Source of the DNA: Deltaproteobacteria bacterium
GTDB taxonomy: Bacteria; Myxococcota; Myxococcia; Myxococcales; 40CM-4-68-19
Reading direction: 5' to 3'
Assembly (NCBI GenBank): GCA_025358085.1
Contig: JANYKT010000145.1
Location: forward strand, 1 to 38,546
Length of the DNA: 38,546 nucleotides
Position numbers and translations under genes: made by a program
The notes under the pieces: generated by a model
Seen by the model: the letters and a program-made list of their open reading frames with translations, nothing else
Database searches by the model: none
What the model was told of the DNA's origin: nothing
In this document: in pieces, positions 14,402 through 27,878 of the stretch
Position numbering within the stretch: the stretch's first letter is position 1
Layout of the letters: each line of letters begins with the position of its first letter

Positions 14402-14431
14402 AGCCCGGACAGCTGATTTGCCGGCCGGGCT
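14402..14431 (-). terminator. Candidate terminator downstream of tRNA-Ala
   Basis: AGCCCGG at 14402-14408 and CCGGGCT at 14425-14431 form a perfect 7-bp stem around a 16-base loop. On the minus strand, the direction of the tRNA, the stem is followed by TTTCTATC. The T run is short and the loop long, so support is modest. Confidence 0.4.
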
Positions 14432-14453
14432 GGCTGGCGTCGATATTTCTAGT

Positions 14454-14529
<76 letters not shown>

Positions 14530-14553
14530 TGAGCTTTTTGGCGACGGGCGGCG

Positions 14554-14582
14554 CTTCTATCCAAGCCTCCTTGCGAAGTCAA
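14554..14582 (-). promoter_or_regulatory. Sigma70-type promoter for the tRNA-Ala gene
   Basis: On the minus strand TTGACT (14582-14577) is followed after exactly 17 bases by TAGAAG (14559-14554), a 4/6 match to the -10 box. The region just after it is GC-rich (CGCCGCCCG), like the discriminators of stringently controlled stable-RNA promoters. The tRNA 5' end lies 25 bases downstream of the -10 box. Confidence 0.65.
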
Positions 14583-14606
14583 GACGCTTGGGCCATAGGG
14601 GCGCGA

Positions 14607-15128
14607 ATGGGAATCCTGATCGTCGCGGTCCTCGCCACAGCGCTCGGCTTCATCCTCATCATCCTCATCGGCAAGGGCCAGCCGGTCTCGCCCGCGTCGC
14701 CCGAAAATCTGCTCCGCGAGACGGTCACCGATCTCTCGTGGGTCCGCCAATTCGGTATCGAAGGTTTCCAGCGGCTGCTGCTCACGCTCTTTACTGAAAT
14801 GGGCTTCCAACCTGAGCGCAGTGAGCGCGGCAGAACCACCGTCGATCTCTATGCCAGCGATCCCACGCCCATCCGCGGCGGGCGGCTCTACGTGCACGGC
14901 CTCTTCGGCGCGCCCGGCGTGCCGGTCGAGGCGGACGAGGTACGGAACTTGATCGAGACCGCGCGCGCCGAGTTCATCGGCAAGGGCGTGCTGGTGACGC
15001 TGGGCCGCTTCACCAGCGACGCGCGCGACACGGCCAAGGGCAACCCCATCGATCTGCTCGACGGCGACGACCTGGGCAAGCTGATGAAGAAGCATCTGCC
15101 CCAGGCGTTCGCGACCCGGAAGATCTAG
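14607..15128 (+). CDS. Membrane-anchored Mrr-like (restriction endonuclease fold) protein with degenerate active site
   Basis: From the ATG at 14607 the product has 173 residues. An N-terminal transmembrane helix (residues 2-22) precedes a domain whose pattern follows Mrr_cat: a GFQ-type helix end, VDLYASD, RLYVHG, VEADEVRNL, KGVLVTLGRFTSDARD and PIDLLDGDDLGKLMKKH. The acidic residue in VDLYA is kept, but the Q-x-K that normally follows on the next strand reads VHG, so the catalytic Lys is missing. It is likely a non-nuclease member. The longer frame reaching back to 14418 runs through the tRNA and is not used. Confidence 0.7.
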   Translation: MGILIVAVLATALGFILIILIGKGQPVSPASPENLLRETVTDLSWVRQFGIEGFQRLLLTLFTEMGFQPERSERGRTTVDLYASDPTPIRGGRLYVHGLFGAPGVPVEADEVRNLIETARAEFIGKGVLVTLGRFTSDARDTAKGNPIDLLDGDDLGKLMKKHLPQAFATRKI

Positions 15129-15505: not shown

Positions 15506-16042
15506 ATGCCCGGAGGAGATCCCGGCATTCCCCAAGCGGAGCGCGGCCACAACATCTGGTCCCGCCGCGATCTCGCCTCGCTGGCGGGCTGGGGCGCTAT
15601 CCTCACCTGCTTCGCTGCCGTCGGCGGCGCTATCGTCCGCCTGCTCTTTCCGCGCGTCCTGTTCGAGCCGCCCACCGCGTTCAAGGCCGGCTACCCCAAC
15701 GAGTACACGATCGGGGACGTCTCAGAGAAGTGGATGAAGAGCCAGCGCGTCTGGATCATCCGGACGCAGTCCAACATCTATGCGCTCTTGGGCATCTGCA
15801 CGCATCTGGGCTGCACGCCGCGCTGGCTGGGTCCGGAGAACAAGTTCAAGTGCCCCTGCCACGGCTCGGGCTACACGAAGGACGGCATCAATTTCGAAGG
15901 ACCGACGCCGCGCCCGCTCGAGCGCGTCAAGATCTCGCTTGGCGATGATGGCCAGTTGATCATCGATAAAGCTTTCCGCTTTCGGTACGAGCTGGGCCAG
16001 TGGGACGATCCCACGGCATTCGTCAAGTACAACGGCGTTTGA
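15506..16042 (+). CDS. Rieske iron-sulphur protein of a cytochrome bc/b6f-type complex
   Basis: This encodes 178 residues from an ATG at 15506 with AAGGAGA just upstream. An N-terminal twin-Arg (SRRD) and hydrophobic helix (about 26-47) form the membrane anchor and probable Tat signal. The 2Fe-2S ligands are Cys98, His100, Cys116 and His119, with the disulphide pair Cys103 and Cys118 (CTHLGC and CPCHGSGY). It moves electrons from quinol at the outer face to the next cytochrome. First gene of the respiratory operon; the following genes encode cytochrome b in two pieces. Confidence 0.95.
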   Translation: MPGGDPGIPQAERGHNIWSRRDLASLAGWGAILTCFAAVGGAIVRLLFPRVLFEPPTAFKAGYPNEYTIGDVSEKWMKSQRVWIIRTQSNIYALLGICTHLGCTPRWLGPENKFKCPCHGSGYTKDGINFEGPTPRPLERVKISLGDDGQLIIDKAFRFRYELGQWDDPTAFVKYNGV

Positions 16043-16112: not shown

Positions 16113-16895
16113 GTGCCCGAGACCGAACCTTCCAAGCCGTCCATCTTCGACATCGTCACCCAGAACTACGTCTGGCGGTCCATCTTCCGCCACGGTTATG
16201 CGGACACTCCGCGCAATCGCGTGCTGCAGGTCTCGGCCAATGTCTGGCTGCACCTTCACCCGTCCAAGATGCGCCGCCACGGCATTCGCTACCGGCACAC
16301 CTGGTGCGCGGGCGGCCTGACCTTCCTGCTCTATCTGTGCACGGTGGTCACCGGCGTGGTGTTGATGTTCTATTACCGGCCGACCGGCGAGTATGCCTAT
16401 TGGGACGTGAAGTACCTGGACTTCGATGTTCCGTTCGGCATGATCATGCGCAACATGCACCGCTGGAGTGCGCACGGCATGGTCATCTTCATCTGGCTGC
16501 ATATGTTCCGCGTCTTCATGACCGGAAGCTATAAGCCACCGCGCGAATTCAACTGGGTGGTCGGCGTCAATCTATTGACCCTGACCCTGCTGCTCAGCTT
16601 TACCGGCTACCTGCTCCCCTGGGACCAACTCGCTATCTGGGCGGTCACCGTCGGCACCAATATGGCGCGCGCCACTCCGCTGCTCGGCAATGAAGGTCCT
16701 TTCGGTCCCCAACTCGGTATGACTCCGCGCTATGACGCCCGCGCGCTGCTCACCGCCGGCACCGTGGTCGGCTCACCCACGTTGCTGCGTTTCTACGTCC
16801 TCCATTGCATCTTCATCCCCCTCATCGCCTCCATTCTGATGATTCTCCACTTCTGGAGAATCCGGAAGGACGGCGGTATCTCCGGCCCGCTGTAA
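16113..16895 (+). CDS. Cytochrome b, N-terminal (b6-like) subunit
   Basis: This encodes 260 residues from a GTG at 16113, with GAGGA seven bases upstream. It holds the four-helix haem b bundle. His pairs lie in MHRWSAHG...WLHMFR (13 residues between) and VLHCIFIP...ILHFWR (14 between, the spacing typical of b6 rather than of bc1 cytochrome b). The end [11 protein letters not shown] also matches b6. Cys65 in HTWCAGG sits where b6 carries Cys35, which binds the extra haem ci covalently. The protein oxidises quinol together with subunit IV and Rieske. Confidence 0.93.
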
Positions 16896-16910: not shown

Positions 16911-17732
16911 ATGGCCGAGAACATCAATCCTGCGACCATCCAGGACCAGGAAGAAGTCAAGGTCACTGCCGGTCGCGCGCGGGCCAACATTCCGCTCGCC
17001 GACCTGCCGGACAAGGTCCACACCTGGCCTTATCTGGTCCGCGCCGAGTTCATCTCGGGCTGCGTACTTCTATTGGTGCTGATGGTCTGGTCCATCACTG
17101 TCGATGCGCCCATGGAAGAGCCGGCCAATCCCACCAAGACGCCCAATCCGTCCAAGGCGCCGTGGTACTTCCTCGGCTTGCAGGAAATGCTGGTCTACTT
17201 CGACCCCTGGATCGCCGGCGTGTTGCTGCCGTCGCTCATCATCGTCGGCCTGATGGTCATTCCCTATGTGGATATCAATCCCAAGGGCAATGGCTATTAC
17301 ACCTTCCACGAGCGCAAGTTCGCCATCACCACCTTCCTGGTCGGCTTTCTCGTTCTCTGGGTCGGGATGATCACCATCGGTGTGTTCTTCCGCGGCCCCG
17401 GCTGGAACCTCTTCATGCCCTGGGACTACTGGGATCCGCACAAGGTGGTGCCGCTCGCCAACATCGATCTTCCCTATATCGTCGGTATCCGCAGCGAGAT
17501 GGGCGCGATGCTCTTTGGCGCGGTCCTGGTGATCGGTTGGCTGGCCGGCATTCCGGGCCTGTTCTGGCAGTGGAAAAAGGATTCGCCCGCGATGCGCGAG
17601 CTGGGCCTGCTCCGCTACGGAATCGTCTCCAATCTCTTCATGGTCATGGCCGGCGTAGTGGTGAAGATGGCGCTCCGGCTCATGTTCAACATCAAGTACA
17701 TCCTGGTCATCCCGAACATCCTCAATATCTGA
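16911..17732 (+). CDS. Cytochrome b C-terminal subunit (subunit IV-like)
   Basis: This encodes 273 residues from an ATG at 16911, 15 bases after the b6 stop. It has a roughly 45-residue cytoplasmic head and several membrane helices (about 45-65, 98-118, 135-160, 195-220 and 232-255), more than the three of plant-type subunit IV. The quinol-oxidation motif that is PEWY in most complexes reads APWY here (KAPWYFLGLQE), without the Glu. Variant motifs of this kind are reported for menaquinol-using complexes. It forms the Qo site with the b6-like subunit. Confidence 0.9.
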   Translation: MAENINPATIQDQEEVKVTAGRARANIPLADLPDKVHTWPYLVRAEFISGCVLLLVLMVWSITVDAPMEEPANPTKTPNPSKAPWYFLGLQEMLVYFDPWIAGVLLPSLIIVGLMVIPYVDINPKGNGYYTFHERKFAITTFLVGFLVLWVGMITIGVFFRGPGWNLFMPWDYWDPHKVVPLANIDLPYIVGIRSEMGAMLFGAVLVIGWLAGIPGLFWQWKKDSPAMRELGLLRYGIVSNLFMVMAGVVVKMALRLMFNIKYILVIPNILNI

Positions 17733-17751: not shown

Positions 17752-20700
17752 ATGGCCACCCGACCTCTCGAGCTGCAATCCCTGAAGTGGCCGTTCGTCG
17801 GCCTCGCGGTGCTCCTCGCGCTCTCCACCGGCTGGGCCGTTTACGACGAAGTCTTCTCGCGGCGGCCGTGGAAGAACTACCAGCGCGAGTTCTTCAAGCT
17901 CGATGAGTCCCACCTGAAGGCCGACCGCGACCGCGCCCTGAAGCGCCTCGACGATCCCGAGACGAAGAAGCAGCTCGAGGCGGACGAGGCCGAGGCCAAA
18001 TCCGCGAGCGACGCCATCGCGGGCAATGCCGAGCAGCGAAAAGCCTACGACGCCGTGGTCAAGGCCGACGACGAGGCGGCGTCCAAGGAGGCGGAGGGCA
18101 AGCTCTACCTCGGCTTCGAGAAGTCGAAAGCGGACGCCATCTATTACACCTTGCGCGAGGCGCGCCACGAGGGGAACGCGAAGGAAGAAGAAGAGGTCCA
18201 GAAGAAATTCGAGGCGAAGAATCACGACGCCGACGAGAAGTCCAAGGTCTTCACTGCGGCCATCCAGCACCACAAAGAGACGACGGCCGCGCGACTCGCC
18301 TTCCTGCAGCGGCGCGATACGGCGCAAGCGAAGATCGACGCGTTCAGGAAGCCCATCGCCGACCTCGACAAGCGGCTCTCGGCCTTTACCGGCCTGGGAA
18401 AATTTCCGGCGATGGAGCAGTACTGGGTTTCGGGCCTGAAAAACTCGTGGGGCGCAGAGACCGTCGACCGTTGCCAGAATTGTCACGTCGCCGTCAATAA
18501 AGGCGGCTTCTCGGCGCCCTGGGAAGTCCTCGAGGCCGTCAAAGCCAAGATCTCCGACGCCGATCTGAAAGCGCAATATGCGCTCGATAAGGAAGTCGTC
18601 GATACCTATCAAACCATTCACGACAAGATCTGCGAGGACGCGCCGCCGCCGTCCGCTGCCATTCCCATTGGCGGTGTGCCCGTCGCTGCCGAGCCACCCC
18701 CGGCCGATCCTGCCGCTGCCACCGAGTGCCGCCCGCGCGCTCTCTATGAGAAGTGGCTGGAGCTGGGTGCGTCCTATTGCGGCCCCAATGCGCGCGCGCT
18801 CGCTCGCACCAAGGTGGTGTTGAAAGACGCCTCGGGTGCCGTGCTCGGGCTGGAGAAGGATGAATGGAAGGGAATGGCGCGGAATCCCACGCGGGACGCC
18901 ATGGCTGAAGAAAAAGAGGGTACTGGCGAAAACTCCGGGTGGGATGCGCGCGTGACGCAGGCCTGTACCGACAAGGACACGGCCGCTGCCTTCGACGATG
19001 CGGTGAAGGTGAATCCATTCGATGTCAAGCCGGTCTTTCGCACGCACCCGCATCGCTTTGAAATGCTGGTCAAGAATCACCAGCCCGAGACTTTCGGCTG
19101 CACCACCTGCCACGGAGGTGAGGGCGCGCAGACTAAAGGCGTCGAGCACAAGGCCTTCCGCCACGGCGCGGACGACCACGACTGGAACGATCCGCTCACC
19201 GATGAAATTCACATCATGGGCAAGAAGTACAAGGGCGCATTCCTGCAATCGAAGTGCGACAAGTGCCATTACAACGAATTGAATCTCGCCTATGCGCCGA
19301 CGCTCTCCGCCGGCAAGAAGCTCTTTACCGACGTGGGCTGCTGGGGCTGCCACCCAATCGAGGGCTACAACGAATTGCCCAAGCGGGGCCCGACGCTTCT
19401 GACCATTTCATCGAAGGTGTCGCCGGGCTGGCTGCAAACCTGGATTCAATACCCCAAGGCCTGGCGGCCTGCCACGCGCATGCCGAACTTCTGGCCGGGC
19501 GCGGTCGACGGCAGCGCGGTCTCGCATTCGATCGACGCGCACGGCGGCGTGCACCCGGACGGCCTTACCGACGAGCAGGCTCTGACGGACCACAAGAAGC
19601 TCCGCGATGAAGAGGTCTCAGCCATCTCCGCCTATCTCTGGACGCAGAGCGAACCGGCGAAGCTGCTGGTCGACACCGCGCCGAAGGGCGACGCCGCGGC
19701 CGGTAAGGAATTGTTCGACAGCGTCGGCTGCCGTGGCTGTCACGTCTACGAGAAAAATTCGAGTGCGCGAAGGAGCGAGGCCTCGGAGGAGCGCGACTAT
19801 GCGCCCAACCTTTACAATATCGCTGACAAGGCGCGTCCCGAGTGGATCTACAGCTGGGTAAAGAACCCCAAGGCGATGTGGCCCGAGACGAAGATGCCGA
19901 ACCTGCGCCTGACCGACACGGAAGCGGCCAACATCACTGCCTTCCTCGGAACGCAGAAGACCGACGCGCAGTATCCCGAACCGGCCGAATACAAGGACCC
20001 AGCGCAGCTCCGGAAGCTGGGCGAGACAGGCAAGACCTTGATCGCAAAGTACGGCTGCTTTGGCTGCCACAACATCAAGGGTTTCGAGAACGCGCAGAAG
20101 ATCGGCACCGAGCTCACCGAGCACGGAAAAAAGGACGCCAACCTGCTCGACTTCGGCGACGTCAAGTACTTCACCGAAAATCCGAGGCACCGGCAGACTT
20201 ATGCCAACTGGGTCTGGGAAAAAATGCACACGCCGCGCGTTTATGCTTATGAGCGCGTCGAGACCCGGATGCCGCAATTCGATTTCACCGACGCGGAATC
20301 GCTCTCCATTCTGACCTTCCTCAAGGGCCAGACGGGCGAGCGGCCCACGGTCGATTACCAGGCCGGCCAATCGCCGGTGAAAGCGGCCGTCCTTCAGGGC
20401 GAGAAGCTGGTCTTCTGGAACGGCTGCCGGCAGTGCCACATCGTGCAGGGCCGCGGCGGGCAGGTGCGCGACCAATACAACGAAGACAACCAGAGTTTTG
20501 CTCCGCCGGTGCTGACGGGGGAGGGTGCCAAAGTGCAGCCGGCCTGGCTCTTCGCCTTTCTCAAGGGCCCTTATCCATTGCGGCCCTGGCTCAATATCCG
20601 CATGCCTACTTTCCACTTCCCCGACCAGGATGCGACTGAGGTGGTGCATTACTTCGCGGCGGCCTCCAACAAGAGCTTCCCGTATCTGACCGCCGAGGCC

Positions 20701-21078
20701 GACCAGCCCGCCGGCCAGCGGCTCAAGGATACCGAGGAGCTGTTTACGGCGCTGCAATGCACGACCTGCCATGTGGTCGGAGCGCTGCGGCCAGGGCAGG
20801 ATCCGGGGTCCGCGGCTCCCAACTTCCTGATGGCAAAGAATCGCCTGCGGCCGGATTGGATCCCGCTCTGGCTGAAGAATCCGCAGGAGCTGCTCGACGG
20901 CACTCGTATGCCAAGCTTCTGGGACTTCTCGGACGAAGCGCACCCGACCTCGCCCAGCAAGCTCTTCAATGGCGACGCCAAGGAGCAAATCAATGCGCTC
21001 CGCGACTACCTGATGCACCTGGATCTGAAAGCGACGCCGCCGGGCAAGTCAGCCTCTCTGGACCCGCACCACGGCTAG
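17752..21078 (+). CDS. Giant membrane-anchored octahaem cytochrome c with coiled-coil stalk
   Basis: This encodes 1108 residues from an ATG at 17752. One transmembrane helix (about 13-32) is followed by a charged, Ala/Glu/Lys-rich coiled coil to about residue 215. Eight CXXCH haem sites occur at 241, 450, 502, 530, 660, 769, 892 and 1003. The last five recur every 110-130 residues, each followed by an (R/K)MPxF segment able to give the Met ligand, so they look like five tandem monohaem cytochrome c domains. The first three probably are bis-His. It is placed where cytochrome c1/f is expected and probably accepts electrons from Rieske. No Shine-Dalgarno sequence is evident. Confidence 0.93.
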   Translation: MATRPLELQSLKWPFVGLAVLLALSTGWAVYDEVFSRRPWKNYQREFFKLDESHLKADRDRALKRLDDPETKKQLEADEAEAKSASDAIAGNAEQRKAYDAVVKADDEAASKEAEGKLYLGFEKSKADAIYYTLREARHEGNAKEEEEVQKKFEAKNHDADEKSKVFTAAIQHHKETTAARLAFLQRRDTAQAKIDAFRKPIADLDKRLSAFTGLGKFPAMEQYWVSGLKNSWGAETVDRCQNCHVAVNKGGFSAPWEVLEAVKAKISDADLKAQYALDKEVVDTYQTIHDKICEDAPPPSAAIPIGGVPVAAEPPPADPAAATECRPRALYEKWLELGASYCGPNARALARTKVVLKDASGAVLGLEKDEWKGMARNPTRDAMAEEKEGTGENSGWDARVTQACTDKDTAAAFDDAVKVNPFDVKPVFRTHPHRFEMLVKNHQPETFGCTTCHGGEGAQTKGVEHKAFRHGADDHDWNDPLTDEIHIMGKKYKGAFLQSKCDKCHYNELNLAYAPTLSAGKKLFTDVGCWGCHPIEGYNELPKRGPTLLTISSKVSPGWLQTWIQYPKAWRPATRMPNFWPGAVDGSAVSHSIDAHGGVHPDGLTDEQALTDHKKLRDEEVSAISAYLWTQSEPAKLLVDTAPKGDAAAGKELFDSVGCRGCHVYEKNSSARRSEASEERDYAPNLYNIADKARPEWIYSWVKNPKAMWPETKMPNLRLTDTEAANITAFLGTQKTDAQYPEPAEYKDPAQLRKLGETGKTLIAKYGCFGCHNIKGFENAQKIGTELTEHGKKDANLLDFGDVKYFTENPRHRQTYANWVWEKMHTPRVYAYERVETRMPQFDFTDAESLSILTFLKGQTGERPTVDYQAGQSPVKAAVLQGEKLVFWNGCRQCHIVQGRGGQVRDQYNEDNQSFAPPVLTGEGAKVQPAWLFAFLKGPYPLRPWLNIRMPTFHFPDQDATEVVHYFAAASNKSFPYLTAEADQPAGQRLKDTEELFTALQCTTCHVVGALRPGQDPGSAAPNFLMAKNRLRPDWIPLWLKNPQELLDGTRMPSFWDFSDEAHPTSPSKLFNGDAKEQINALRDYLMHLDLKATPPGKSASLDPHHG

Positions 21079-21190
21079 CAGCTGCGGGGTTGAATGGGCG
21101 GCGTCCCGCAGCGTCAGAACAAGCAATGCACTTGACCACGCTGGATCGCTCTGTTACTGCGCGATCCGCTTTCACCTAATGGAGAATACG

Positions 21191-21880
21191 ATGAAGACTT
21201 TGAAGACGTTCGCGGTTCTCGCCGCGCTCATTCCGGCCGCAGCTATGGCGGAAACGGTCGAGGGCGTCGTGGAGTTCAGCGGCAAGGTTCCGACCGCCGT
21301 CAAGCTCCACCGCGAGGCCGACCCCTTCTGCGCCAAGAAGTCGATGACCGACCCGTCGGTCGAAGTCAAAGGCGGCAACCTTGCCAACGTCTGGGTGAAC
21401 ATCACCAAGGGCGCGCCGGCGGCAAAGTCGGTCCCCGACAAGACCGTTTCGATGAATCAGAAGGACTGCATGTACTCACCGCGCGTCACCACCGCGGTGG
21501 TGGGCGAGAAGATCGAGGCGAAGAACGACGACCCCGTCCTTCACAACGTCCATGTCTATTCCGGCGCCGCTACGCTCTTCAACAAGGGCATGCCGAACTC
21601 CAGCGCCGCGCCCATCGAGACCGTGGCCAAGGAAGAGGGAATGATGAAGTGGAAGTGCGACGTGCACCCGTGGATGCGCGGGTACATCGGCATCTCCAAG
21701 AGCGGCCTGCAGGACGTGACCAATGGCGATGGCGGCTTCAAGATCGCCGACGTACCGCCGGGCAGGTACACCATCGAGGCGTGGCACGAGAAGTATGGCA
21801 TCAAGAAGCAGGAAATCACCGTCGAGGCCGGCAAGCCCGTCAAGATCGTATTCAAGTACGACGGCACCGAGAAAGCTTAA
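21191..21880 (+). CDS. Secreted blue-copper (cupredoxin) protein with C-terminal beta-sandwich
   Basis: The ATG at 21191 has GGAG six bases upstream and is preferred over the ATG at 21179. The product is 229 residues with a signal peptide cleaved after AMA (about residue 21). Type 1 copper ligands are visible: His118, Cys156, His159 and Met162 (HNVHVY and CDVHPWM). The last 55 residues (GDGGFKIADVPPGRYTIEAWHEKYG) are a carboxypeptidase-regulatory-like Ig domain. Position between the multihaem cytochrome and the oxidase genes suggests a mobile or docking electron carrier. This functional placement is inference. Confidence 0.88.
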   Translation: MKTLKTFAVLAALIPAAAMAETVEGVVEFSGKVPTAVKLHREADPFCAKKSMTDPSVEVKGGNLANVWVNITKGAPAAKSVPDKTVSMNQKDCMYSPRVTTAVVGEKIEAKNDDPVLHNVHVYSGAATLFNKGMPNSSAAPIETVAKEEGMMKWKCDVHPWMRGYIGISKSGLQDVTNGDGGFKIADVPPGRYTIEAWHEKYGIKKQEITVEAGKPVKIVFKYDGTEKA

Positions 21881-22006: not shown

Positions 22007-23050
22007 TTGATTCGCCGACTCGCCGCCTTTGCCGCCCTGCTGACGCTCGTGTTGATCACGGCGGGTGGCCTGGTCACCAACACCGACTCGGGGCTCGCCT
22101 GCCCCGATTGGCCCATGTGCTTCGGTTCGCCGATTCCGAAAATGGTCGGCGGCATCGCGGTCGAGCATACGCACCGCCTGATCGCGACGGCGGTCGGACT
22201 GATTGCTGCCGCGCTGGTGGTGCTGACGTTGCGCCGCGCGCGGCAAACGAAGCTCCTGCTCCTCGCCGTGCTCGCCGCAACGGTCGTGCTCGGCGCTGCC
22301 ATCTATGCCGCGCAGGTCAAGTACCAGACTGACACTGTTCCGCCGCTGGCCGCCGCGTTGGTCTTCGCCGGTTTCGCAGCTTGCGGATTCATCGCCTTCA
22401 CCGCTCGCGACACCGACGGAAAGCTTGCAGTCACTTCGCTCGCCCTGGTCATGGCGCAGGGTCTACTGGGCGGCATGACCGTCCTCTACAGACTGCCCCC
22501 GACCGTCCTCATCCTGCATCTCGGCACTTCGATGCTCTTCCTCAGTGCGCTGGTGGTGCTCGCCTGCCACGCCAGCGCCCGCGAGGCGGTGATCGCGCCG
22601 CGGTTCCTGATCTGGCTGACCACGGCCGCTGTCTTTCTGCAGATCCTGCTCGGGGCGACCGTGCGGCACACCGGCGCGGGCCTCATCTGCACCGACCTGC
22701 CCTTCTGTCGCGGCGCGCTCTGGCCAATGAACGTCCATCCCGCCGTGCACCTGCACATGACCCACCGAGCGCTCGCCTTCGTAGTGCTGGGGCTGGTTGC
22801 CTGGACCTCCGCCCGGGTCGCCCGAAGCTCGACTGGGCTTTTGCGCGCGCTGGCTCTCCTGGCGCCTGCGATGGTGGTGCTGCAGATCGCGCTTGGCGTT
22901 CTCACCATCACCACATTCAAAGAACTTGTGCCGGTGACCGCGCACCTGCTCGTTGCTGCGCTGCTGCTCGTTACGCAGGTGTGCCTGCTGGCCCTGACGC
23001 GCTCGCAGCCCGCCGAGGCGCTGGCACCCGCGCTCCAGGCCGCGATGTGA
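22007..23050 (+). CDS. ctaA: Haem A synthase (CtaA/COX15 type)
   Basis: The start is TTG at 22007, after GAGG about nine bases upstream; no in-frame ATG fits the N-terminus. The 347-residue product has eight predicted membrane helices. The four haem-binding His are seen in VEHTHRLIA, LILHLGTS, HMTHRALAF and VTAHLL. Each half carries a Cys pair in the outer loop (CPDWPMC and CTDLPFC), the disulphide-forming type found in Bacillus CtaA. It oxidises haem O to haem A for the oxidase encoded downstream. Its stop overlaps the ctaB GTG. Confidence 0.93.
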   Translation: MIRRLAAFAALLTLVLITAGGLVTNTDSGLACPDWPMCFGSPIPKMVGGIAVEHTHRLIATAVGLIAAALVVLTLRRARQTKLLLLAVLAATVVLGAAIYAAQVKYQTDTVPPLAAALVFAGFAACGFIAFTARDTDGKLAVTSLALVMAQGLLGGMTVLYRLPPTVLILHLGTSMLFLSALVVLACHASAREAVIAPRFLIWLTTAAVFLQILLGATVRHTGAGLICTDLPFCRGALWPMNVHPAVHLHMTHRALAFVVLGLVAWTSARVARSSTGLLRALALLAPAMVVLQIALGVLTITTFKELVPVTAHLLVAALLLVTQVCLLALTRSQPAEALAPALQAAM

Positions 23051-23925
23051 CGGCGGCCGTCATGGGCGCCAGACCCCGCGACTTTCTCCAGCTGGCGAAG
23101 CCGCGCATTACCAGTTTGGTGCTCTTCACCTGCGCGAGCGGGCTGTGGCTGGCGCCGCGCGGAATCTCCGCGCTGGCGGTCGCAATCACGCTCACCAGCA
23201 CCGTGCTCATCGTGGCTGCCGCGAATACCCTCAACATGTATCTCGAGCGCGACAGCGACGCGCTCATGGCCCGCACTGCAAACCGCCCGCTGCCCGCCCG
23301 CCGCATGGAGCCCGGCGTCGCGCTGCGCTTCGGCCTCGTGCTCGTGGCCGTCTCGGTGCCGCTGCTGACTTTCGCGGTTGGGCCGCTGCCGGGGCTGCTC
23401 GCTTCCGTGGCGCTGGTCAGCTACGTGCTGCTGTACACCCCGATGAAGCGACTCTCGGCCGCGTCCCTTCTGGTGGGCGCGGTGCCGGGCGCCATTCCGC
23501 CGCTGATCGGCTGGACCGCCGCGACCGGCCGCCTCGACCTGCCCGGCGTGCTGCTCTTTGCAGTGATGTTCCTCTGGCAGGTGCCGCACTTCCTCGCCAT
23601 TACGCTCTTCCGCAAGGAAGACTACGCGCGCGCCGGCCTGGTGGTGCAGCCCAACGAGCCGGGCGGCGAGCGCGCCGCGCGAATCAATATCGTCCGCTAC
23701 ACGGTCGCGCTGGTGGCGGTCTCGCTTCTGTTCGTGCCCATCGGCTTCGGCCACGCGGCCTATCTCGCGACCGCGCTGACGCTGGGAGGAGCTTTCCTCG
23801 CGTATGGCGTTCTCGGCCTGCGCGAAGGCGCAGGCGTGCGCTGGGCCCGCAATCTCTTCCTGCTGTCGCTGGTGTATTTGCCGGTGCTCTTTGGCGTCTT
23901 GATGTGGGACCGCGCACCCCGATAA
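23047..23925 (+). CDS. ctaB: Protohaem IX farnesyltransferase (haem O synthase)
   Basis: A GTG at 23047 overlaps the ctaA stop as GTGA (292 residues); an ATG at 23062 is the alternative. The UbiA-type prenyltransferase signature is present: NMYLERDSDALMARTANRPL (N-x(3)-R-D-x(2)-D equivalent), YTPMKR, and a second acidic region around FRKEDYARAGLVVQPN. Eight or nine membrane helices are expected. It converts haem B to haem O, the substrate of CtaA. The tight overlap fits co-translation of the two haem A pathway enzymes. Confidence 0.94.
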   Translation: MTAAVMGARPRDFLQLAKPRITSLVLFTCASGLWLAPRGISALAVAITLTSTVLIVAAANTLNMYLERDSDALMARTANRPLPARRMEPGVALRFGLVLVAVSVPLLTFAVGPLPGLLASVALVSYVLLYTPMKRLSAASLLVGAVPGAIPPLIGWTAATGRLDLPGVLLFAVMFLWQVPHFLAITLFRKEDYARAGLVVQPNEPGGERAARINIVRYTVALVAVSLLFVPIGFGHAAYLATALTLGGAFLAYGVLGLREGAGVRWARNLFLLSLVYLPVLFGVLMWDRAPR

Positions 23926-24287: not shown

Positions 24288-25103
24288 ATGGATGAGACAA
24301 AGTACGGTTGGTGGCTGCCGGTGGACGTCTCCGTTCACGGCGCTCGTATCGACCAGCTGATCAGCGTCGTGCACTGGTTCATGCTGCTGCTCTTCGTGGG
24401 CTGGGGCGCTTTCTTCGTCTACTGCCTGATCAAGTTCCGCGCCCGCGATGGCCACCAGGCCACCTACAATCCGGTCAAGGGCATCTTCACCAAATACATC
24501 GAAGTCGCGGTGGTGGTGATCGAGGTGTTCGTGCTCTTCGGTCTCTCGACCCCGGTGTGGTTCGCTTACAAGAACCACCCGCCGGCCGAGAAGGACGCGG
24601 TCACCATCAAGCTGGTTGCCGAGCAGTTCGCCTGGAACTTCCATTACTCAGGCAAGGACGGAAAGTTCGGCCGCACCGACAGCTCGCTGATGAGCGGCGA
24701 CAATCCGCTCGGCCTGGATCCCGACTCTCCCGAAGGCAAGGACGATATCGTCACCGTGAATCAAATGCACATTCCAGTGCATAAGCCGGTGATTATCCAA
24801 ATCACTTCCAAGGACGTGATTCACAGCTTCAATATCCCGGTGCTGCGCGTGAAGCAGGACACCATCCCCGGCCAGCGCATTCCCATCTGGTTCGAGGCCA
24901 CGCAGACGGGCCACTTCGAGCTCGCCTGCGCGCAACTCTGCGGCCTGGGTCATTACCGCATGCGCGCCGACGTGTTCATCGACAGCCCCGAGGATTATGC
25001 CAAGTGGGAGGCCGACAACACGCCCCCGCCGGCCGAGGCGCCCGCTGCTGAAGCGCCTCCGGCTCCCGAAGCTCCCGCCGTTCCCGCGCCCGAAGCGAAG
25101 TAA
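24288..25103 (+). CDS. coxB: Cytochrome c oxidase subunit II (CuA subunit)
   Basis: The ATG at 24288, after TAAGGA, gives 271 residues. Two membrane helices (about 20-45 and 68-90) anchor the cupredoxin domain, which carries the binuclear CuA ligands His179, Cys214, Cys218, His222 and Met225. The residue between the cysteines that is often Glu is Gln216. Unlike caa3 subunit II there is no fused cytochrome c domain; the C-terminus is a Pro/Ala/Glu-rich tail of about 35 residues. It must therefore take electrons from a separate donor, presumably the multihaem cytochrome or the cupredoxin upstream. Confidence 0.94.
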   Translation: MDETKYGWWLPVDVSVHGARIDQLISVVHWFMLLLFVGWGAFFVYCLIKFRARDGHQATYNPVKGIFTKYIEVAVVVIEVFVLFGLSTPVWFAYKNHPPAEKDAVTIKLVAEQFAWNFHYSGKDGKFGRTDSSLMSGDNPLGLDPDSPEGKDDIVTVNQMHIPVHKPVIIQITSKDVIHSFNIPVLRVKQDTIPGQRIPIWFEATQTGHFELACAQLCGLGHYRMRADVFIDSPEDYAKWEADNTPPPAEAPAAEAPPAPEAPAVPAPEAK

Positions 25104-25115
25104 GCGAGGACACCT

Positions 25116-26930
25116 ATGAGCGTCGAACAACAGCCGCACGGCACTCCGAACGCACCCGCCATCGGGCCAGAAACCGGTCACGCGCACGGCGAACTCGCAC
25201 ACGCCGGCCCCGACCACGGTCACCACGAACTGCCCTTCTGGAAGAAGTACATCTTCTCCGTCGATCACAAGGTCATCGGCATTCAGTATGCGGTCACCGC
25301 GCTCTTGTTCCTCTTCTTCGGCTTCACGCTGATGATGATGATGCGGTGGCAGTTGGCGTATCCGGGCCGCCCGATGCCGTTCTTCGGCAGGTTCTTCAGC
25401 GACAACGTCATGCCGGGCGGCGTAATGGCTCCCGAGTTCTACAACCAGCTCGGCGCCATGCACGGCACCATCATGGTGTTCCTCGGCGTGGTCCCGTTGG
25501 CGGTGGGCGGCTTCGGCAACTTCGTCATGCCGCTGCAAATCGGCGCGCCCGACATGGCGTTCCCGCGGCTCAACCTGCTCTCGTACTGGGTGTTCGTTCC
25601 GGGCGGCATCATCATGCTGGCAAGCTTCGCCATGCCGGGCGGCGCCGCGCAGTCGGGCTGGACATCCTATCCGCCGCTCTCGGTCATCGCCTCATCGGGA
25701 CAGACTGCCTGGCTCTTTGGCATGATCTTCCTGATTACAAGTTCCTTGCTGGGCTCGATCAACTTCATCGTCACCATCGTGCAGATGCGCGCCAAAGGCA
25801 TGACCTTCTTCCGCCTGCCGTTCTTCGTGCACGCGCAGCTGGTCACCAGTTTCCTCCTGCTGCTGGCGTTCCCGCCGCTCGAGGCCGCCGGCATCCTGCA
25901 GCTGATGGACCGTCTCGCCGGCACCAGCTTCTTCCTGCCCACCGGACTTGTGGTCTCGGGCGAGGCATTGAAAGTTGCCGGCGGCGGATCGCCCCTGCTC
26001 TGGCAACATCTCTTCTGGTTCCTCGCGCACCCGGAGGTCTATGTCCTCATCCTCCCGGCCATTGGTATCGTCGCCGAAGTGATCGCCAACAACACCCGCA
26101 AGCCTCTGTGGGGATATCGACTGCTGGTCTATTCGATCATCTTCCTCGGCTTCATGTCCTTCGTGGTCTGGGCGCACCACATGTTCATGACCGGCATGGG
26201 AACCACCATGTCGACGTTCTTCCAGACGACCACCATGATCATCTCGGTCCCTTCGGTCATTGTCGTGACCTGCTTCCTGATGTCGCTCTACGGCGGCAAC
26301 ATCCGCTTCACCGTACCGATGCTGTTCGCCACCGCGTTCCTGCCCATGTTCGCCATCGGCGGCCTCACCGGCCTGCCGCTCGGCCTGACCGCTTCCGACA
26401 TCTACCTGCACGACACGTTCTACGTGATCGGGCACTTCCATTATGTGGTCGCGCCGGGAACCCTGTTCGCTCTCTTCGCGGGTATCTACTATTGGTATCC
26501 GAAAGCGACCGGCCGGATGATGAACTCCACACTGGGAAAGATTCATTTCTGGTGGAGCTTCGTGTCCATCAACTTCGTCTTCATGCCGATGTTCTTTCAG
26601 GGCATGGCCGGCCTCTCGCGCCGTCTCTATGACCCCACCGTCTATGCCCACGGCCGCGGCGTGCAGCCGCTGAACGTGGTCATCAGCTGGGCGGCGTGGT
26701 CCCTGGGCCTCGCGCAGATCCCCTTCATCATCAACTTCTTCATGTCCCTGAAGAACGGCGCGCGCATCGCCGAGAACCCCTGGAATGCGACCACGCTGGA
26801 ATGGATGGCGCCGTCTCCTCCCGGACACGGCAACTTCCTCACCGAACCCATCGTGTATCGCGAGCCGTACGAGTACAGCGTCCCAGGCGCAAAGCAGGAC
26901 TTCTCACCCCAGTTCGTGGCGGAGGCTTAA
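25116..26930 (+). CDS. coxA: Cytochrome c oxidase subunit I, K-channel lysine missing
   Basis: This encodes 604 residues from an ATG at 25116 after GAGGA, with a His-rich N-terminal tail and 12-plus membrane helices. The binuclear centre and D-channel are of type A1: Asn135 and Asp146 (GAPDMAFPRLN), HPEVY at 305-309 (CuB His, Glu307, the cross-linked Tyr309), WAHHM, and GHFHYV for haem ligands. In the helix after TTTMIISVPS, where A-type oxidases carry the K-channel Lys, this protein has Val383 (VPSVIVVTCF). The rest of that region aligns without gaps. Confidence 0.95.
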   Translation: MSVEQQPHGTPNAPAIGPETGHAHGELAHAGPDHGHHELPFWKKYIFSVDHKVIGIQYAVTALLFLFFGFTLMMMMRWQLAYPGRPMPFFGRFFSDNVMPGGVMAPEFYNQLGAMHGTIMVFLGVVPLAVGGFGNFVMPLQIGAPDMAFPRLNLLSYWVFVPGGIIMLASFAMPGGAAQSGWTSYPPLSVIASSGQTAWLFGMIFLITSSLLGSINFIVTIVQMRAKGMTFFRLPFFVHAQLVTSFLLLLAFPPLEAAGILQLMDRLAGTSFFLPTGLVVSGEALKVAGGGSPLLWQHLFWFLAHPEVYVLILPAIGIVAEVIANNTRKPLWGYRLLVYSIIFLGFMSFVVWAHHMFMTGMGTTMSTFFQTTTMIISVPSVIVVTCFLMSLYGGNIRFTVPMLFATAFLPMFAIGGLTGLPLGLTASDIYLHDTFYVIGHFHYVVAPGTLFALFAGIYYWYPKATGRMMNSTLGKIHFWWSFVSINFVFMPMFFQGMAGLSRRLYDPTVYAHGRGVQPLNVVISWAAWSLGLAQIPFIINFFMSLKNGARIAENPWNATTLEWMAPSPPGHGNFLTEPIVYREPYEYSVPGAKQDFSPQFVAEA

Positions 26931-26933
26931 GCC

Positions 26934-27545
26934 GTGTCCGAAACCGTCATTCCGTACATGGTCAAGCCGAACCCGGTGACCGGCATCCCCAACGGGAAGT
27001 TCGCCATCTGGCTCTTTCTCGCGAGCGAGGTCATGCTCTTCGGCGCGCTCTTCTCGAGCTATGTGCTGCTGCGCACGGGCGCGCCGCACTGGCCGCCCGA
27101 AGGAGGGTTGTCGAGCGAAATTCTCAACGTCCCGCTCGCCACCATCAATACGATGGTGCTGATTACCTCTTCCATTACGATGGTCCTCTCCTGGGCCTCC
27201 TGCAAGCTGGGCGACCTGCGCAAGTTCCGGATGTGGATGGCATCGACCATCGCGCTGTCGTTCGTCTTCCTGGTGATCAAATACTTCGAGTACCACCACA
27301 AGTTCGAACTGGGTCATTACCCCTCGCACGACAACTTCTACGCCATCTATTTCACGCTGACGGGCCTGCACGGGATCCACATCATCGGCGGCATCATCGT
27401 GAATACGTTCCTGCTCACCATCGGCACGCGGATGTGGAAGACCGACCCCGAGCATTTCACCAACCGCGTCGAGAACGCCGGCCTCTATTGGCACTTCGTC
27501 GATCTGGTGTGGATCTTCCTCTTCCCCGCGCTGTACTTGCTGTAA
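26934..27545 (+). CDS. coxC: Cytochrome c oxidase subunit III
   Basis: A GTG at 26934, three bases after the coxA stop, is preceded by GGAGG inside the end of coxA. The product has 203 residues and five membrane helices. Family motifs include WLFLASEVMLFGALFSSYV, the conserved Glu in KYFEYHHK, TGLHGIHIIGG and the C-terminal YWHFVDLVWIFLFPALYL. Subunit III stabilises the D-channel side of subunit I. It is the short form lacking the first two helices, as in caa3-type and quinol oxidases. Confidence 0.94.
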   Translation: MSETVIPYMVKPNPVTGIPNGKFAIWLFLASEVMLFGALFSSYVLLRTGAPHWPPEGGLSSEILNVPLATINTMVLITSSITMVLSWASCKLGDLRKFRMWMASTIALSFVFLVIKYFEYHHKFELGHYPSHDNFYAIYFTLTGLHGIHIIGGIIVNTFLLTIGTRMWKTDPEHFTNRVENAGLYWHFVDLVWIFLFPALYLL

Positions 27546-27563
27546 GTCAGGGAGACCAAGCTT

Positions 27564-27878
27564 ATGGACGCTGCCGCGCCGTTCGATCCCGTCGAGTTCA
27601 AGAAGCACCTGCGCCAGTACTACGCAGTCTTCGTGGCGCTGGCATGCCTGACCGCAATCACCGTCGGCGTGAGCTATCTCAGGCTCAACCGCCCGCTCGC
27701 CATCGGTGTGGCGCTGGTCATCGCCTCCATCAAGGCGAGCCTGGTGGCCGCGGTCTTCATGCACCTCATCTCGGAGAAGAAAGTCATCTTCGCGCTGCTG
27801 GCGCTGACCGTCTTCTTCTTCCTGCTGGTGCTGCTGCTTCCGGCGATGACTACGCTGGAAGGCGGGCGCATCCTCTAA
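27564..27878 (+). CDS. Cytochrome c oxidase subunit IV, prokaryotic type
   Basis: This encodes 104 residues from an ATG at 27564, after GGGAG. Three hydrophobic helices (about 18-40, 46-68 and 75-97), with AIGVALVIASIKASLVAAVFMHL in the second, match the prokaryotic subunit IV family found in caa3/CtaF-type oxidases. It sits at the outside of the complex and is not catalytic. The TAA stop overlaps the next ATG (TAATG), implying coupled translation. Confidence 0.88.
   Translation: MDAAAPFDPVEFKKHLRQYYAVFVALACLTAITVGVSYLRLNRPLAIGVALVIASIKASLVAAVFMHLISEKKVIFALLALTVFFFLLVLLLPAMTTLEGGRIL

Follow-up and report, generated by a model that had tools for sequence, protein, structure and literature searches.

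In Nitrospina gracilis an "atypical octaheme cytochrome c" has been described that accompanies a Rieske protein and a split cytochrome b as their sole c subunit, and Kuenenia and Methylomirabilis are reported to have an operon of the same structure (PMC3578206). The Kuenenia complexes have been modelled, the reason for so many haems being called unclear (PMC12954380). The present analysis concerns the gene for an octahaem cytochrome c on a 38,546-nucleotide stretch of DNA, referred to as the window, from a deltaproteobacterium of the Myxococcota (assembly GCA_025358085.1, contig JANYKT010000145.1, positions 1 to 38,546). Judged by its sequence and gene neighbourhood, the well conserved protein is best read as the c subunit in a Rieske/cytochrome b complex of b6f-like type, and it most likely serves as the arm that collects electrons in a bacterial complex related to complex III.

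The operons of Nitrospina gracilis, Kuenenia stuttgartiensis and Methylomirabilis oxyfera each hold a Rieske protein, a split cytochrome b and one octahaem c, as does the locus described here. This likeness is one of operon content and subunit IV helices, the octahaem proteins being matched by description and not by sequence, and no Nitrospina, Kuenenia or Methylomirabilis locus was among those returned by the contig scan for octahaem homologues. The Kuenenia cluster Kustd1480-1485, with the octahaem protein Kustd1485, shares with the window a b6-like cytochrome b, a five-helix subunit IV, an expected covalent haem c_n and a large multihaem subunit with long helices; a five-helix subunit IV is reported for two b6f-like complexes of Kuenenia (PMC12954380). 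The Kuenenia complexes also include an NAD(P) oxidoreductase subunit, which is not given for Nitrospina and was not found here between 15506 and 27878; in the window, cupredoxin and aa3 oxidase genes follow instead. An octahaem c in such complexes is thus already known, although the present branch had not previously been described in detail, and what is added here is a ligand map, an optional stalk, a wider distribution and a linked blue-copper protein.

Cytochrome b6f with plastocyanin resembles the present locus in its split cytochrome b, the cysteine for haem c_i, the Rieske protein and a nearby small blue-copper acceptor. Here, however, cytochrome f is missing, the quinol-site motif reads APWY instead of PEWY, subunit IV has five helices and the c subunit carries eight haems. 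No cytochrome f match was obtained, the octahaem protein occupying its place, and a complex that lacks both cytochrome f and PEWY is not assigned to cytochrome b6f proper. QcrC of the actinobacterial bc1-aa3 supercomplex is, like the protein described here, a membrane-anchored multi-domain class I cytochrome in complex III; it has two haems, a fused cytochrome b and a different anchor, as opposed to eight haems and a split cytochrome b.

The octahaem gene and the three genes directly upstream of it, all on the same strand, are the following (aa, amino acids; AF2, AlphaFold2):

15506..16042, plus strand: Rieske [2Fe-2S] subunit, 178 aa (Pfam Rieske 1.4e-9; CTHLGC...CPCHGSGY)
16113..16895, plus strand: cytochrome b6-like subunit, 260 aa (Pfam Cytochrome_B 3e-43)
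16911..17732, plus strand: C-terminal half of cytochrome b, resembling subunit IV, 273 aa (Pfam Cytochrom_B_C 3.2e-8)
17752..21078, plus strand: octahaem cytochrome c subunit, 1108 aa (open reading frame, CXXCH count, alignment, profile comparison, AF2)

This arrangement is found in the window and in 15 of the 15 homologous loci whose contigs reach far enough upstream, and the role as c subunit is concluded from it. The link to the upstream genes, which largely settles the role, had been missed in the initial annotation, whose reading of the domains held. The gene order is common to Myxococcota, Acidobacteriota and Omnitrophota at 29-73% identity between the octahaem proteins. The assignment is further supported by a correlation between the pairwise distances of cytochrome b and of the octahaem protein (r = 0.87, 16 loci).

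The subunits of the putative quinol-oxidizing core retain their characteristic residues. The Rieske cluster ligands CxHxGC and CxCHG are present, the sequence CTHLGC...CPCHGS being found in all 14 loci compared. The split of cytochrome b into separate genes for a b6-like part (16113-16895) and a subunit IV-like part (16911-17732) is confirmed, and in the former the histidine pairs 116/130 and 231/246 show b6 spacing and are putative haem-b ligands. Cys65 in the sequence TWCAGG is invariant in 16 aligned homologues; we take it to occupy the position of the covalent haem c_i/c_n in cytochrome b6, and the haem is predicted here. Subunit IV has about five hydrophobic helices, by hydropathy only, and its Qo motif is KAPWY instead of PEWY in 17/17 homologues, with proline replacing the usual glutamate of the quinol site. 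Variants of the Qo motif are known in other bacteria. An invariant HLHP stretch precedes the first helix of cytochrome b and may match the extra haem b (His43 or His62) that is predicted between the cytochrome b monomers in the Kuenenia models.

The octahaem reading frame starts at ATG 17752 and encodes 1108 aa; coordinates, frame and start all hold, and homologues speak for this start, as they share the first methionine and the sequence MxxKPLELQSLKWPF that begins with it. Eight CXXCH motifs are found at aa 241, 450, 502, 530, 660, 769, 892 and 1003. Their origin by chance or frameshift is rejected; in a shuffling test, the same composition gave a mean of 0.01 and a maximum of one CXXCH in 20,000 shuffles. 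The alignment comprises 26 octahaem homologues, and conservation counts for this protein were taken from the 25 with complete N-termini: all eight CXXCH are invariant in 25/25 and kept in each full-length homologue. Within the protein, the following parts are distinguished:

17788..17862, plus strand: membrane anchor, aa 13-37 (hydropathy, AF2 helix)
17866..18387, plus strand: helical stalk, aa 39-212, about 175 residues (AF2 helices 39-67, 69-90, 97-139 and 143-212)
18472..18486, plus strand: haem site 1, aa 241-245, VDRCQNCH (invariant in 25/25)
19045..19356, plus strand: haem sites 2 (aa 450) and 3 (aa 502) in one module that extends into site 4 (aa 530) (Cytochrome_C7-like)
19297..19671, plus strand: class I cytochrome c domain of haem 4 (aa 530), ligand Met577 (Cytochrom_C 2.2e-8)
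19672..19986, plus strand: class I cytochrome c domain of haem 5 (aa 660), ligand Met715 (Cytochrom_C 4.4e-9)
19987..20355, plus strand: class I domain of haem 6 (aa 769), Met840 (Cytochrom_C 0.0029, below cut-off; hhalign 96-99%)
20356..20706, plus strand: class I domain of haem 7 (aa 892), Met951 (Cytochrom_C 5.6e-4; hhalign 98-99%)
20707..21075, plus strand: class I domain of haem 8 (aa 1003), Met1053 (Cytochrom_C 0.0023, below cut-off; hhalign 96-99.6%)

The C-terminal part (aa 516-1108) is a chain of five class I cytochrome c domains, each with a CXXCH, a C-terminal methionine and a match to the Cytochrom_C profile. The CXXCH sites 4-8 are separated by 130, 109, 123 and 111 residues, and each is followed by a Met-Pro pair (four RMP and one KMP) with the methionine at position 577, 715, 840, 951 or 1053; these five ligand candidates are invariant in 25/25. 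The units are mutually homologous (hhalign probability 96-99.8%, E 1e-9 to 1e-28), and when compared singly with Pfam Cytochrom_C all five match, three above the curated cut-off of 21.3 bits and two just below it with 19.3 and 19.7 bits. Beyond the stalk, the AF2 model likewise consists of cytochrome-like helical units. The modules of site 1 and of sites 2/3 are of a different kind, as their profiles match the terminal units over 11-24 columns at the CXXCH only. In the module of sites 2 and 3, His432 and His443 are conserved in 25/25 and His471 in 22/25 homologues; they are likely candidates for the distal ligands of haems 1-3, and three histidines for three haems suggest bis-His ligation. The initial annotation had proposed eight haem sites in the reading frame 17752-21078, a different nature of the first three, and tandem class I domains spaced 110-130 residues apart with a Met segment for the last five, all of which was borne out.

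Hydropathy reveals a single hydrophobic segment in the octahaem protein, near the N-terminus, followed by the motif RRPWKxYQ (aa 37-44), in which R38, W40, K41 and Q44 are invariant in 25/25. The long helical stalk that had been proposed to follow the membrane helix is indeed modelled, with a confidence (predicted local distance difference test, pLDDT) of about 90, yet it is not universal. In most members some 200 residues separate RRPWK from haem 1, but the distance falls to 39-46 in the four octahaem homologues L066, L068, L069 and L070, which lack the stalk, as well as in L018, one of the likewise stalk-less 5-haem relatives. Because this distance can drop to about 40 residues, the stalk is an optional insertion between two points that would have to sit close together. 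Its suggested function as a spacer between haems and membrane is not favoured, since the four stalk-less homologues retain all eight haems and the stalk is thus dispensable in this respect. Nor is one continuous coiled coil supported, the helical periodicity over the whole stalk being no better than in shuffled sequences; the stalk probably packs round the complex as a helical hairpin. A fold search with the full model gave nothing significant, unrelated coiled-coil hairpins (such as SH3BP5 and colicin E3) being the top matches at E of at least 0.16, and a single-sequence search of solved structures returned a generic cytochrome c domain only.

The 5-haem relatives (L017-L025) come from another family of the same order and measure about 420 aa in those cases with a clear start. 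Encoded after a cytochrome b and a subunit IV of their own, they have haems 1-5 with much the same spacing, which suggests that class I domains are gained or lost at the C-terminal end of the chain.

Downstream of the octahaem gene, the cluster continues on the same strand with genes for a blue-copper protein and a haem-copper oxidase:

21179..21880 (start perhaps 21191), plus strand: exported amicyanin/plastocyanin-like blue-copper protein with a C-terminal beta-sandwich (ligands, AF2, Foldseek)
22007..23050 (start uncertain), plus strand: haem A synthase, CtaA/COX15-like (Pfam COX15-CtaA 8e-36)
23083..23925 (start approximate), plus strand: haem O synthase CtaB (TIGR01473 4.5e-78)
24288..25103, plus strand: oxidase subunit II with CuA motif CAQLCGLGHYRM (TIGR02866 2.9e-45)
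25116..27878, plus strand: oxidase subunits I, III and IV (COX1 1.4e-134; COX3 and COX4_pro matches)

In the cupredoxin, the type 1 copper ligands H122, C160, H163 and M166 do not vary among 14 sequences. Its AF2 model has a pLDDT of 83.9, with amicyanin as the top Foldseek match (E 2e-6) and plastocyanins lower in the list. The linkage of an amicyanin-like protein to the octahaem gene amounts to a pairing like that of b6f and plastocyanin in a non-phototroph. The oxidase is of the aa3 type with CuA, and its subunit II contains zero CXXCH and hence no fused cytochrome c.

From this gene content we infer a complex that would oxidize quinol, probably menaquinol. The classical route is the likely source of this substrate, since menD is found in the genome and the MqnA/MqnD family of the futalosine pathway was not found in the genome search. 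One electron would reach the negative side via the haems b and the covalent haem predicted at Cys65. The second electron would be transferred from the Rieske cluster to the module of haems 1-3, close to the membrane, and then through the five Met-ligated class I domains in sequence, from which the likeliest exit would lead via the neighbouring blue-copper protein to CuA of the aa3 oxidase. Taken as a whole, a c subunit of the Rieske/cytochrome b complex that would pass on electrons from quinol, most likely to blue copper and CuA, is the best explanation of the locus, and we hold it with high confidence.

Several observations weigh against this explanation or parts of it. In homologue L071 subunit IV was not seen within the 0.6 kb upstream examined, and the correlation of cytochrome b and octahaem distances partly reflects shared descent. 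In most loci a cupredoxin gene adjoins the octahaem gene or is found close by, but it is missing beside L042-L044; a CuA oxidase without fused cytochrome c follows the complex in the window and several relatives, but only some of the relatives have oxidase genes directly beside the complex, and the acceptor may therefore differ. The same genome encodes two other haem-copper oxidases and a second Rieske/cytochrome b complex, so that the acceptor is not fixed by elimination. Finally, the AF2 model of the octahaem protein (mean pLDDT 78.6, predicted template modelling score 0.73) was built without haems and without partner proteins.

With respect to the exit path only, the octahaem protein might wire directly to CuA in a III-IV supercomplex, as with actinobacterial QcrC, the cupredoxin doing some other job. 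The oxidase genes lie in the same cluster and encode a subunit II with CuA and no fused cytochrome c, the five class I domains could bridge the Rieske site and the oxidase, and the octahaem protein is weakly similar to actinobacterial QcrC and the 7q21_C chain. This resemblance, however, is that of class I domains in general; moreover, linkage to the octahaem gene is more frequent for the cupredoxin than for the oxidase genes, and several relatives have no adjacent oxidase. Direct wiring, which shares the assignment as c subunit of the complex, is thus regarded as possible but doubtful. Rather unlikely is a wired complex III, in which five high-potential domains would conduct from the Rieske protein to a bound blue-copper protein or CuA within a fixed III-IV assembly, with the optional stalk clamping the assembly together or restricting how far the Rieske head can swing, unlike in bc1, b6f and alternative complex III.

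Geobacter ExtP/ExtQ/ExtS combine a split cytochrome b with a multihaem c lipoprotein, and by analogy to the ext clusters the Rieske/cytochrome b part could serve as the inner-membrane quinol oxidase of an extracellular electron-transfer conduit. Cytochrome b matches ExtP with 9e-79, subunit IV matches ExtQ with 2e-17 and the octahaem protein weakly matches ExtS, but all these scores are under the family cut-offs, and neither an ext-type or other porin nor an outer-membrane cytochrome is seen among the scanned reading frames of the cluster. An aerobic oxidase follows, and the five terminal haems look Met-ligated. Met-ligated haems usually have a high potential. We consider a conduit very improbable. 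A catalytic octahaem enzyme drawing electrons from the complex, of the type of hydroxylamine oxidoreductase (HAO) or octahaem nitrite or tetrathionate reductase (ONR, OTR), would have the eight haems and a precedent in the HAO-like octahaem protein accompanying one Kuenenia complex (PMC12954380), but is extremely improbable, as HAO/ONR/OTR family profiles and solved structures give no match and, with both axial positions apparently filled in five class I domains, no conserved haem of open coordination is evident.

Among curated models in Pfam and NCBIfam none covers the whole octahaem protein, in line with the initial annotation, which had matched the arrangement to no named family; octahaem c subunits as such had nevertheless been published already (PMC3578206, PMC12954380). 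The NCBIfam model SoxX (TIGR04485) reaches 73.6 bits against a cut-off of 61, and automatic annotation could therefore misname the protein SoxX. This score is summed over the class I repeats in 1108 aa; SoxX is the small mono-haem subunit of SoxAX, and there are no sox genes among the scanned reading frames of the cluster. The NCBIfam names ExtS, QcrC and CcoP were discarded as well, since their matches either stay under the cut-off or stem from individual class I units.

Genomes that encode members of the octahaem family bear the labels Myxococcales or Deltaproteobacteria, Acidobacteria and Omnitrophota, and members occur in 24 of the 195 genomes searched of the window's own phylum (named members: Myxococcales/Deltaproteobacteria). 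The arrangement with an octahaem c subunit, noted before in a few nitrogen-cycle bacteria, is thus also present in soil and groundwater Myxococcota, Acidobacteriota and Omnitrophota. The family has fixed haems and ligands, an optional stalk and often an adjoining blue-copper protein and oxidase, but no curated name; it offers a testable acceptor in an aerobic setting, which may be simpler than anammox.

Three further observations concern the surroundings. In the groundwater relative L037 the minus strand downstream of the octahaem gene contains frames with 11 and 4 CXXCH, which point to a larger multihaem cluster. The second Rieske/cytochrome b complex of the genome (L080, 2530-6169) has a cytochrome b that is fused and contains PEWY; after it comes a multihaem cytochrome of another kind, which has a hydrophobic segment at its C-terminus. 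In the window, a protein with an Mrr-type restriction endonuclease domain is encoded at 14418-15128, just upstream of the respiratory cluster.

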